IMG/VR virus record: IMGVR_UViG_3300008217_000015
Location: 1-43,040 of that record
DNA length: 43,040 bases
Strand: one strand, 5' to 3'
DNA from: a virus
Both the position numbers and the translations under genes were made by a program. Of the stretch, positions 6,488 to 14,096 are shown piece by piece. Every line of letters starts with the position of its first letter. Positions within the stretch are counted from its first letter, which is position 1. The notes under the pieces were generated by a model. It was given only the letters and a program-made list of their open reading frames with translations, was not told where the DNA came from and searched no databases.

Positions 6488-7738
6488 ATGTCAACTTTTG
6501 ACTTTATTTTACCCCCAGCTTCACAAACCTTAGCTGTTTCACGAAGCAACTATAACAGTAGTTTAACAGCGCTTATACAAAGTTACTATGGAACTTCTTT
6601 ACCTGTGGCGGCAGACGTTAACCGAGAAGGAACCACCGGGTTGGTTAATGGAATGTGGTATCGCGACTCTGCTAATGGAGTAGTTTTTATTAGAGATTCT
6701 AATGCTTTTAAAGGGCAAAGCGGGCATGTAACTGGAAATTTTACTCGGGTGGGGATAGGAACCAGAATAGTTTCTACTCTAGCTGTAGCTGCTACTCTTG
6801 CGGGTACTGGTCATGCTAAGTTTTCTGCTATTGAAGTTGGTGAGTTAATTTGTACTGTGGGTAATTCTGCCGGATCAGCGAATAATCGTTTGTATTTAAG
6901 AACAGCTAATGCTGTTAATGGAATTGCTGATGTTAGTATTCCTCCTGACGCTTCTATTGGAGTAGCAAAATTAAATTGGGATGACCCAGTTCCAATTTAT
7001 CAAAATACTACTATGGCAAATATTTTTGTTAAAGGAAATCTTGTTCAAAATATAGGTAACGTTGCAAACCAAATAAATGATGTATATATAGGTGGAGCAT
7101 TTGTACAACCTATACGGGCGCACGTAGGAACGGCTGCTAAGCCAAGCTACACTTTTGATAACGATCCTAACACTGGGTTATTTAGTAATGCTGCTGATTC
7201 TATAGGAATTGCTACAGCAGGAGTTCAGAGGGCTTTAGCTAATACAAGCGGTATTTATCCCACTTCTAATAATGCTCAAGATCTGGGTGGGTTGGTTCAT
7301 AAGTGGCGTGGTATACATGCGGTTAATTTTTATGGAACTGCTACTAGCGCTCTTTACGCTGACTTGGCAGAACGTTTTGAAGCCGATTCATTATTAGAAG
7401 CAGGAGATGTAGTAATGTTAGGAGGAGAAAAAGAAATTACTAAAACCGATAAAGAAAGTACTCCAGAAGTATTTGGAGTAATTTCTGCGAGTCCAGCGTA
7501 TGGAATGAATTCCTTGGGGGGTACTGATGAAACACATCCTTATGTAGCTTTGGCTGGAAAAGTTCCTGTAAAGGTAGTAGGAAAGGTAATAAAGGGCCAA
7601 AGATTAGTAGCGAGTTCTCAGCCAGGAATTGCTATTGCTGCAGAAACTAAGAATATTTTCGCTGTTGTTGGTAGAGCTTTGGAATCTTCAGATGAATTAG
7701 GAATTAAAAAAATTAATTCAGTGGTTGGGAAGTTATAA
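6488..7738 (+). CDS. Tail fibre protein
   Basis: 416 residues. AGGAG lies about 10 bases before the ATG. The N-terminus probably anchors to the tail. The centre has a repeat-like fibre segment (YTFDNDPNTGLFS...IGIATAGVQRA), a pattern common in phage fibres. The last ~130 residues (from YADLAERFEADSLLEAGDVV) form a compact domain also seen at the C-terminus of marine phage fibre proteins, perhaps a receptor-binding or self-assembly module. This is the last gene of the tail block and is followed by a new promoter. Family resemblance is from memory; receptor unknown. Confidence 0.7.
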   Translation: MSTFDFILPPASQTLAVSRSNYNSSLTALIQSYYGTSLPVAADVNREGTTGLVNGMWYRDSANGVVFIRDSNAFKGQSGHVTGNFTRVGIGTRIVSTLAVAATLAGTGHAKFSAIEVGELICTVGNSAGSANNRLYLRTANAVNGIADVSIPPDASIGVAKLNWDDPVPIYQNTTMANIFVKGNLVQNIGNVANQINDVYIGGAFVQPIRAHVGTAAKPSYTFDNDPNTGLFSNAADSIGIATAGVQRALANTSGIYPTSNNAQDLGGLVHKWRGIHAVNFYGTATSALYADLAERFEADSLLEAGDVVMLGGEKEITKTDKESTPEVFGVISASPAYGMNSLGGTDETHPYVALAGKVPVKVVGKVIKGQRLVASSQPGIAIAAETKNIFAVVGRALESSDELGIKKINSVVGKL

Positions 7739-7753
7739 TTTAAAAATTTAAGA

Positions 7754-7782
7754 TTGCCTATTGTAAAAAAATAGAGTATAAT
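7754..7782 (+). promoter_or_regulatory. Sigma-70-type promoter for the small-gene block
   Basis: TTGCCT at 7754-7759, a 17-base spacer, then TATAAT at 7777-7782. It lies between the fibre stop and the metallothionein-like gene and should start transcription near 7789, giving a leader of about 20 bases that carries AGGAGG. It implies that the small-gene block is transcribed independently of the tail genes. Confidence 0.75.
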
Positions 7783-7806
7783 TTAATAAGAATAGGAGGT
7801 GTTTTG

Positions 7807-7920
7807 ATGTCTGGAAATTCTATGACTTGTTCTACTCCTGAGTGTTCTTGTGATCCGTGTGAATGCACTTCGTGCATACCAGATAGTGGTTGCTGCGAGT
7901 GTACAGTAAGAAAGGATTAG
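7807..7920 (+). CDS. Small cysteine-rich metallothionein-like protein
   Basis: 37 residues, 9 of them Cys (positions 8, 13, 15, 18, 20, 23, 29, 30, 32). The core C13-S-C-D-P-C-E-C20 is a CxCxxCxC motif, the arrangement near the N-terminus of bacterial metallothioneins such as Synechococcus SmtA. There are no aromatic residues and no His. A perfect AGGAGG is 7 bases before the ATG and a consensus promoter lies just upstream, so strong expression is likely. Metal binding (Zn, Cu or Cd) is inferred. It is shorter than SmtA, so it may hold fewer metals or be a Cys-rich structural peptide. Confidence 0.75.
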   Translation: MSGNSMTCSTPECSCDPCECTSCIPDSGCCECTVRKD

Positions 7921-7924
7921 GGGG

Positions 7925-8083
7925 ATGCCCCTTAAAAAAGGAAAGAATAAAAAAGTAATATCTGGTAATATTAAAAAATTAAAAGAAGAGGGTTATTCAC
8001 AGCGGCAAGCTATTGCGATTGCTCTTGATACCGCGTGGAGAGCGAAAAAGCCTAAAAAAAGAAAGAAAAAAAGGAAAGTATAA
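7925..8083 (+). CDS. Small basic phage protein, tandem copy 1
   Basis: 52 residues, with 16 Lys and 4 Arg. It opens MPLKKGKNKK and has a central helix-like segment NIKKLKEEGYSQRQAIAIAL, followed by a Lys/Arg tail. Very similar short proteins occur in many marine phages; their role is unknown. The next gene is a paralogue with the same plan. GGGG just before the ATG is a weak ribosome site, and the gene lies 4 bases after the metallothionein-like gene. Binding to DNA or RNA is only a guess from charge. Confidence 0.7.
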   Translation: MPLKKGKNKKVISGNIKKLKEEGYSQRQAIAIALDTAWRAKKPKKRKKKRKV

Positions 8084-8233
8084 ATGCCGCTTAAAAAGGG
8101 AAAAGGTCAAGCTGTTATTTATAGTAATATTAAAAAGTTACGGAAAGAAGGGTATACTATAAAACAGGCTACTGCTATTGCTTTAGACATGGCGGGTAAG
8201 AAGAAAAAACCTGGGCCTAAGAAAAAGAAGTAA
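8084..8233 (+). CDS. Small basic phage protein, tandem copy 2
   Basis: 49 residues. It shares MPLKKGK, a NIKKLRKEGYTIKQATAIAL segment and a Lys-rich tail with the preceding gene, so the two arose by tandem duplication. The ATG directly follows the stop of copy 1 and its own stop overlaps the next ATG (TAATG). AGGAAAG at the end of copy 1 could serve as its ribosome site. Function unknown. Confidence 0.7.
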   Translation: MPLKKGKGQAVIYSNIKKLRKEGYTIKQATAIALDMAGKKKKPGPKKKK

Positions 8234-8502
8234 TGTCTATAACGTATCGAGGAGAAAAATTTTCTGGATATAACAAACCTAAAAGAACTCCTAGTGCTAA
8301 AAAATCTCATGCGGTACTGGCTAAGGAAGGAAGTAGTGTAAAACTTATTCGTTTTGGTCAACAGGGTGTAAGAGGTGCGGGCAAAAATCCACAGACTCCT
8401 AAAGAAAAAGCAAGAAGAAGATCTTTTAAGGCACGACATGCTCAAAACATTAAAAAAGGCAAAATGTCAGCAGCTTATTGGGCTGATAAGGTAAAATGGT
8501 AA
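8233..8502 (+). CDS. Conserved small basic phage protein (YRGEKF...SAAYWADKVKW type)
   Basis: 89 residues, strongly basic. I recognise the overall pattern (TYRGEKFSGYNKPKRTP, IRFGQQGVRGAGK, RRRSFKARHAQNIKKGK, SAAYWADKVKW) as a conserved hypothetical protein found in many marine and cyanobacterial phages. The closing SAAYWADKVKW is the most distinctive part. No function is established that I know of. It overlaps the previous stop by one base. Proximity to tail genes and a high positive charge could mean a virion-associated nucleic-acid-binding protein, but this is speculation. Confidence 0.75.
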   Translation: MSITYRGEKFSGYNKPKRTPSAKKSHAVLAKEGSSVKLIRFGQQGVRGAGKNPQTPKEKARRRSFKARHAQNIKKGKMSAAYWADKVKW

Positions 8503-10770: not shown

Positions 10771-11541
10771 ATGGGAATATCATCGAATCATTTTGCGTAT
10801 TTGTCTATGTTAGCTTACAAAGACGAAGATGAAATTAAAAAATACGTTGAAGAATCTGAATATACTTATACAGATTGGAAAGGTGATAATGCGGTAATTA
10901 AATACACTGATTATCAGGTATTTAACAATGACGGTGCTCAGGCATATGCTTTTTGGAATAAACAGGTGTATGTGATAGCTTTTAGAGGAACTGAGCCGAC
11001 ACAATTAAGTGATGTTTTTGCGGATATGAAAGTATGGAAAACTGAGTCTCAGGTTGATGGTAGAGTACATTATGGGTTTAAGAAAGAGTTAGATAAGATT
11101 TGGTCTGATATAAAAGAGTGTTGGCCTATTTTTAAAGATAGAAGACTGTATGTAACTGGGCACAGTCTTGGTGCCGCAATGGCTACTCTTGCAGCTTCTC
11201 GACTTAATAAAGGAACCCGTGTTCCAACGGTTTACACTTTTGGATGTCCCAGGGTAGGTAATAAAAAGTTTACAGAAAGTTGTACTTTTGAACATCATAG
11301 ATTTGTTAATAATAACGATGCTGTTACAAAGGTTCCTTTTTGGTTTTTAGGATTTCGTCATTCTGGAGATTTAAATTATATTAATTATTATGGTAATATT
11401 AGACCTTTAACTCCTTGGCAAAAGATTAAAGACCAGTTTAGAGGCAGAGTAAGAGCGTTAAGTAAGTTTCAGTTATTTGACGGTATTTTTGACCATAGCG
11501 TTACGCTTTATTATCAAAAGTTAGAAAGGATTTCTAAATAA
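10771..11541 (+). CDS. Class 3 lipase-like alpha/beta hydrolase
   Basis: 256 residues. G130-H-S132-L-G is the nucleophile elbow of lipase class 3. Asp183 (NNNDAVTKVP) and His242 (FDHSVTLY) complete a plausible Ser-Asp-His triad in the right order. The segment VYVIAFRGTEP is the oxyanion/beta-strand region typical of the family, and PRVGN follows the nucleophile as usual. No signal peptide is seen. AAGGA precedes the ATG. It heads a block with membrane proteins, nuclease and holin, so it could help break host lipid at lysis, or act on host lipids earlier. Substrate unknown. Confidence 0.85.
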   Translation: MGISSNHFAYLSMLAYKDEDEIKKYVEESEYTYTDWKGDNAVIKYTDYQVFNNDGAQAYAFWNKQVYVIAFRGTEPTQLSDVFADMKVWKTESQVDGRVHYGFKKELDKIWSDIKECWPIFKDRRLYVTGHSLGAAMATLAASRLNKGTRVPTVYTFGCPRVGNKKFTESCTFEHHRFVNNNDAVTKVPFWFLGFRHSGDLNYINYYGNIRPLTPWQKIKDQFRGRVRALSKFQLFDGIFDHSVTLYYQKLERISK

Positions 11542-14009: not shown

Positions 14010-14096
14010 TCCGGGGTGATGGAAATGGGAGACATGCTAGCCTGTTTAGCTAGTGCTTGAAAGAGCATGCTGGTTCGAATCCAGCCCTCGGAGCCA
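14010..14096 (+). tRNA. tRNA with GTT (Asn) anticodon but long variable arm
   Basis: 87 bases including encoded CCA. Acceptor 14010-14016 pairs with 14086-14092 (one G-T). D arm is ATG/CAT with a Leu-like loop. Anticodon stem CTAGC/GCTAG (14037-14041, 14049-14053) closes loop CTGTTTA, giving anticodon GTT at 14044-14046. Variable arm 14054-14068 has a TGCT/AGCA stem. T stem GCTGG/CCAGC closes loop TTCGAAT. Discriminator is G (14093). A long variable arm is normal for Leu, Ser and bacterial Tyr tRNAs, not Asn. G73 and GTT are Asn identity elements. Position 37 is T, which is unusual. Confidence 0.9.

Follow-up and report, generated by a model that had tools for sequence, protein, structure and literature searches.

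A conserved nine-cysteine, metallothionein-like gene of an uncultivated phage and its apparent motif family in viral contigs and bacteria

A metallothionein-like gene in a phage record

SmtA carries the core CxCEPCxC, RicR controls the gene mymT of the mycobacterial copper metallothionein, and the Penicillinase_R superfamily of repressors includes CopY. Phage morons, in turn, are single genes with their own promoter that lie between morphogenesis genes. Concerning the metals, zinc is the metal of SmtA-type metallothioneins in bacteria (PMC7558416, PMC9337993), Cu(I) is bound by CopY repressors via a CxCxxxCxC motif, and CsoR binds Cu(I) via two cysteines and one histidine (PMC7558416). In a literature search of incomplete coverage, we found no published description of a phage metallothionein of the type reported here.

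The gene lies in a 43-kb uncultivated virus (IMG/VR record IMGVR_UViG_3300008217_000015; the window, hereafter, is this whole stretch of 43,040 nucleotides), whose DNA polymerase finds its best isolate matches in T5-like phages. It occupies positions 7807-7920 on the + strand, with its ATG at 7807 and its stop codon at 7918-7920, and encodes the 37-residue protein MSGNSMTCSTPECSCDPCECTSCIPDSGCCECTVRKD. The ribosome-binding site AGGAGG (7794-7799, + strand) is found 7 nt upstream of the ATG and its GAGG core is kept in relatives; this start agrees better with the ribosome-binding site and with the relatives than the TTG at 7804, where the ORF list made by a program begins the gene. The cysteines, at residues 8, 13, 15, 18, 20, 23, 29, 30 and 32, form the pattern C-x2-P-x-C-x-C-D-P-C-x-C-x2-C-x5-CC-x-C, which includes C13-x-C15-x-x-C18-x-C20, while phenylalanine, tryptophan, tyrosine, histidine and a signal peptide are all absent. 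Being small and very rich in cysteine, with CxC and CxxC steps and few aromatics, the protein has the features by which a metallothionein is operationally recognized. Its cysteine content is far above that of every other window ORF of at least 25 residues (the next reaches 13.5%), and 60 simulated versions of the whole window, made with an order-3 Markov model, never attained it.

No Pfam, NCBIfam or PHROG model matched the protein. With SmtA/BmtA (PF02069) it shares the small size and the CxCxxCxC core, here CxCDPCxC, but it has neither histidine nor the long C-terminal zinc-finger part, and counts 37 residues against about 55. The PF02069 model (Metallothio_Pro) had no match at E<=10 in the window and none among 28 members of the motif family described below, and SmtA scored 1.9 bits against the profile of that family. 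We therefore rejected membership in the SmtA/PF02069 family for want of a profile match: the CxCxxCxC core of bacterial metallothioneins named by the first-pass annotation is present, without support for membership in that family. MymT is similar as a tiny, cysteine-rich cytosolic protein, and bacterial cousins of the phage protein adjoin a repressor best matched by RicR; however, the cysteine spacing differs, there is no clear sequence relation, and no linked regulator was identified for the phage gene. MymT, as an approximate query, scored 8.3 bits against the new profile, whereas cysteine-preserving shuffles of the window protein reach 19.4.

Conservation of the gene and its promoter in related contigs

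Relatives were collected via the conserved left neighbour, a gene for a tail-fibre-like protein of 416 residues (6488-7738, + strand). PHROG tail fibre matches of this protein fall in its C-terminal part, with E down to 1e-10, and matches of unknown function are better (1e-13). Nine related contigs were obtained. In eight of them the Cys gene occupies the corresponding position; the ninth contig stops short of it. One of the eight is nearly identical to that of the window and the rest represent two further protein sequences. Across the three distinct lineage sequences of the locus, 22 of 37 columns are invariant and all nine cysteines are among them (chance 0.004 if the invariant columns were random). 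Between the window and L003, all nine cysteines are kept, compared with 15 of the 28 other residues; the cysteine codons show three synonymous and no non-synonymous differences, against 7 and 13, respectively, in the other codons.

The predicted sigma-70-like promoter (7754-7782, + strand) consists of a -35 element TTGCCT (7754-7759), a 17-nt spacer and a -10 element TATAAT (7777-7782). As a class, promoter-like sites in the window show no excess over shuffled sequence, and for this reason the promoter by itself carries no weight. It is aligned and conserved in L002, L003, L006 and L007, extended TATAATTTA included, although the proteins encoded by the upstream gene now share about 60% identity; the exact TTGCC-N18-TATAAT occurs once in each lineage contig with the Cys gene and at only two other loci of 230. 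Because the nine cysteines and the promoter are both kept in related phage contigs, 7807-7920 is a real gene under selection. These results agree with the first-pass annotation, whose count of nine cysteines in 37 residues, AGGAGG and TTGCCT-17-TATAAT are all found in the sequence. Its description of a metallothionein-like protein behind a promoter is supported by the conservation of both the cysteine pattern and the promoter, and the loss of the pattern in close relatives, which it had named as evidence against the proposal, is seen in none of them.

On the contrary, the gene located 3' of the Cys gene is not conserved. In the window, a small basic protein of 52 residues (7925-8083, + strand) starts 4 nt after the Cys gene, and a small basic protein matching phrog_7595 is encoded at 8233-8502 (+ strand). 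Relatives encode, directly after the Cys gene and where the window has these small basic genes, a DegP/trypsin-like serine protease of 284 residues with a signal-like N-terminus (L003:6518-7372, L006:1666-2520; TIGR02037, E 1.6e-10). Behind the tail fibre, promoter and Cys gene thus stay paired, whereas the gene that follows them varies, and the Cys gene, with its own conserved promoter and its insertion after a tail-fibre gene, would therefore behave like a moron. It differs from a moron in that no terminator was seen directly 3' of it on the + strand, and it is likely co-transcribed with the next genes.

The CxxPxCxCDPCxC motif in phages and bacteria

A first scan of viral contigs with the pattern CxC[DE]PCxCxxC returned many tiny ORFs in other phages. 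Eleven of the 18 plausible small proteins found in this way also carry, at fixed spacing, an upstream C-x-x-P that the pattern did not request; at the position that admitted D or E, all 18 have D. A second scan, with CxxPxCxCDPCxC in viral contigs and in the genomes of bacteria and archaea, gave more members, leading to an uncatalogued family C-x-x-P-x-C-x-C-D-P-C-x-C of about 60 distinct proteins of 20-90 residues. After removal of frame artefacts, 63 distinct proteins overlap no longer open frame, a set that includes some doubtful members and omits some good ones. In the alignment of 28 members (A1), which includes the window protein, nine columns are invariant: C8, P11, C13, C15, D16, P17, C18, C20 and C29.

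The window protein has the motif at this fixed spacing. Against a profile built from the other members, without its own lineage, it reached 20.5 bits, a value that none of 2000 cysteine-preserving shuffles attained (best 19.4); the test is partly circular, since the P and DP columns belonged to the collecting pattern from which most members came. On these grounds the 37-residue protein seems to belong to the CxxPxCxCDPCxC family, which itself seems common in viral contigs, with the reservation that descent and convergence cannot be fully separated in 20-40 residues. The profile matched no solved structure and found no member in 12 isolate records, except for the motif within a 427-residue protein of P-TIM68. 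A tblastn search of isolated phages gave nothing useful, which is weak evidence as BLAST masks such sequence.

Several candidates were set aside during the collection. ORFs of the MSTTCDNCGCDPCICSRC type, at nine loci of cyanophage-like contigs, were dropped because a larger gene encloses each of them in another frame, and matches from Acetobacter/Gluconobacter were dropped as a shared frame without ATG. Five further loci (L068, L089, L118, L129 and L137) look like chance in other frames and were not counted. Cysteine codons were taken to account for the long open frames that run antisense to some members, PDB matches to pediocin were rejected as a chance spacing of few residues, and a nickel-transporter neighbour suspected in L155 was not confirmed.

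Family members are found in several unrelated tailed-phage contexts, which does not support the rarity in phages put forward by the first-pass annotation. Single members adjoin a podovirus-type portal (L036), a T4-like portal and head protease (L062), a terminase (L070), a major head protein (L188) and a T4-like primase (L198), and two are on contigs that carry nrd genes together with a glutaredoxin-like gene (L018 and L090). The neighbours of the phage members are thus structural, replication or nrd genes and not copper genes. In an otherwise different contig (L160), a phrog_7595 gene lies two genes from a CDPC-motif protein. A CDPC-type cysteine motif is also inserted before the EAL-containing basic domain of basic phage proteins (L171, L174, L071 and L048), and their alignment with the homologue in Pelagibacter phage HTVC008M begins only beyond the motif.

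In cellular genomes the distribution is patchy (SAR202, Elusimicrobiaceae, Acidimicrobiia and others): the motif was present in 3 of 149, 6 of 147 and 1 of 148 genomes of three orders, where each count contains the genome through which the order was reached. In Elusimicrobiaceae, a standalone motif gene directly precedes a PF02583 repressor (L116 and L138; same layout in L222-L224), whose best NCBIfam match is the copper-sensing RicR, with a score below the NCBIfam cut-offs, and which has the C..H-x3-C pattern expected for the CsoR Cu(I) site. In Acidimicrobiia and one Dormibacterota genome, CxxPxCxCDPCxCxxCxC forms the N-terminal tail of Penicillinase_R-type repressors (L105, L113, L121, L126, L130 and L139), possibly a new metal-sensing repressor architecture. 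This recalls the CxCxxxCxC metal hook of CopY-type repressors, except that the phage protein corresponds to the tail alone, without the DNA-binding domain. The L113 fusion, whose repressor score is also below the NCBIfam cut-offs, adjoins a fragment of a heavy-metal/copper P-type ATPase, and a ferredoxin carries the motif as a tail in L136. SAR202 members of 25-26 residues are located about 40 nt before a phosphotriesterase-family gene (L144:5894-6952; also L127, L147 and L225-L227), a family of binuclear zinc enzymes; these and other bacterial members have no copper neighbour. Taken as they are, the neighbours and fusion partners of the bacterial cousins, the only functional clues, favour copper.

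Proposed role and alternative readings

Metal binding of a metallothionein-like kind is very probable for the protein. We consider it fairly probable that the gene encodes a metallothionein-like thiolate-cluster protein that binds Cu(I), or alternatively Zn(II), and that, as a moron-like unit with its own promoter, it buffers metal during infection. In the reducing cytosol of the host, the nine cysteines of this small cytosolic protein, arranged in CxC and CxxC steps, would enclose soft metal ions as a cluster, the bound metal being most likely Cu(I), with Zn(II) as the alternative. Of the two metals that the first-pass annotation named for buffering, Zn and Cu, copper is favoured here solely through the bacterial cousins; among the window genes scanned, a part of the total, no copper-sensing RicR/CsoR-type repressor gene was identified near the Cys gene. 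Placed first behind its sigma-70-like promoter after the tail-fibre gene, the moron unit could be read by host RNA polymerase without depending on the tail operon. The benefit would most likely lie in the sequestration of free copper or zinc within the infected cell, so that the metalloenzymes of phage and host are spared until the cell lyses. We infer metal binding, the choice of metal, the stoichiometry, the timing and the benefit of the phage protein. More tentatively, CxxPxCxCDPCxC may be an unnamed copper-binding module exchanged among bacteria and many phages that are not related to each other, in the form of free microproteins, of tails on copper repressors and on a ferredoxin and of inserts in phage proteins, by which phages would control free copper in the infected cell or in the particle.

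The protein could instead be a zinc metallothionein-like protein that stores Zn(II) or delivers it to zinc proteins of the phage or to the pool of the host, as suggested by the SmtA-type precedent (PMC7558416, PMC9337993) and by the phosphotriesterase-family gene after the SAR202 cousins. We regard this as rather doubtful, considering that there is no SmtA/PF02069 match and no histidine ligand, and that the clearest regulatory neighbours of the cousins are of copper type. It is unlikely that the protein is a structural or assembly microprotein, i.e., a metal-knotted peptide in the virion or aiding its building: several phage members do lie among head and packaging genes (portal, head protease, terminase and major head protein), larger basic proteins of phages contain the motif as an insert (L171, L174 and L048) and the window gene sits after a tail-fibre gene, but the contexts vary among phages (primase, nrd, tail), relatives swap the downstream genes, the gene has its own promoter, and the same standalone protein is present in bacteria.

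Action on the host is frequent among small phage proteins that have a promoter of their own, and this, together with the patchy distribution, would fit a host-takeover peptide with a thiolate cluster that binds a regulator or enzyme of the host or withdraws metal from it; the strong conservation of the cysteines and the weak conservation of other residues argue against a fixed protein partner and make such a role quite improbable. Finally, a chance ORF in an intergenic stretch, conceivable for so short a frame in A+T-rich DNA where promoter-like sites are common, is hardly credible given the conserved cysteines and promoter, the exclusively synonymous changes in cysteine codons and the result of the 60 simulations. 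Returning to the metal-buffering reading, should members prove to bind copper or zinc, phage genes below the size handled by annotation pipelines would have an overlooked and widespread function in metal control, and the family would constitute a new, very short class of bacterial metallothionein, down to 21 residues. The shared motif offers a handle on this, as one purified protein would test the whole family.

As for the rest of the record, it also encodes helicases, a primase, an SbcCD-like pair, an NAD-dependent ligase, a ribonucleotide reductase and a lambda-J-type tail protein. The supply of metal to a Rad50-type hook, a primase ribbon and a CHCC protein, suggested by the first-pass annotation, found no support; these genes lie far from the Cys gene and on the opposite strand. 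We also observed a PHROG esterase/lipase match (E 1e-24) at 10771-11541, an unusual cargo for a structural region. At 14010-14096, a single tRNA-Asn (GTT) gene is located between two oppositely transcribed halves of the genome and is followed by a terminator-like hairpin.
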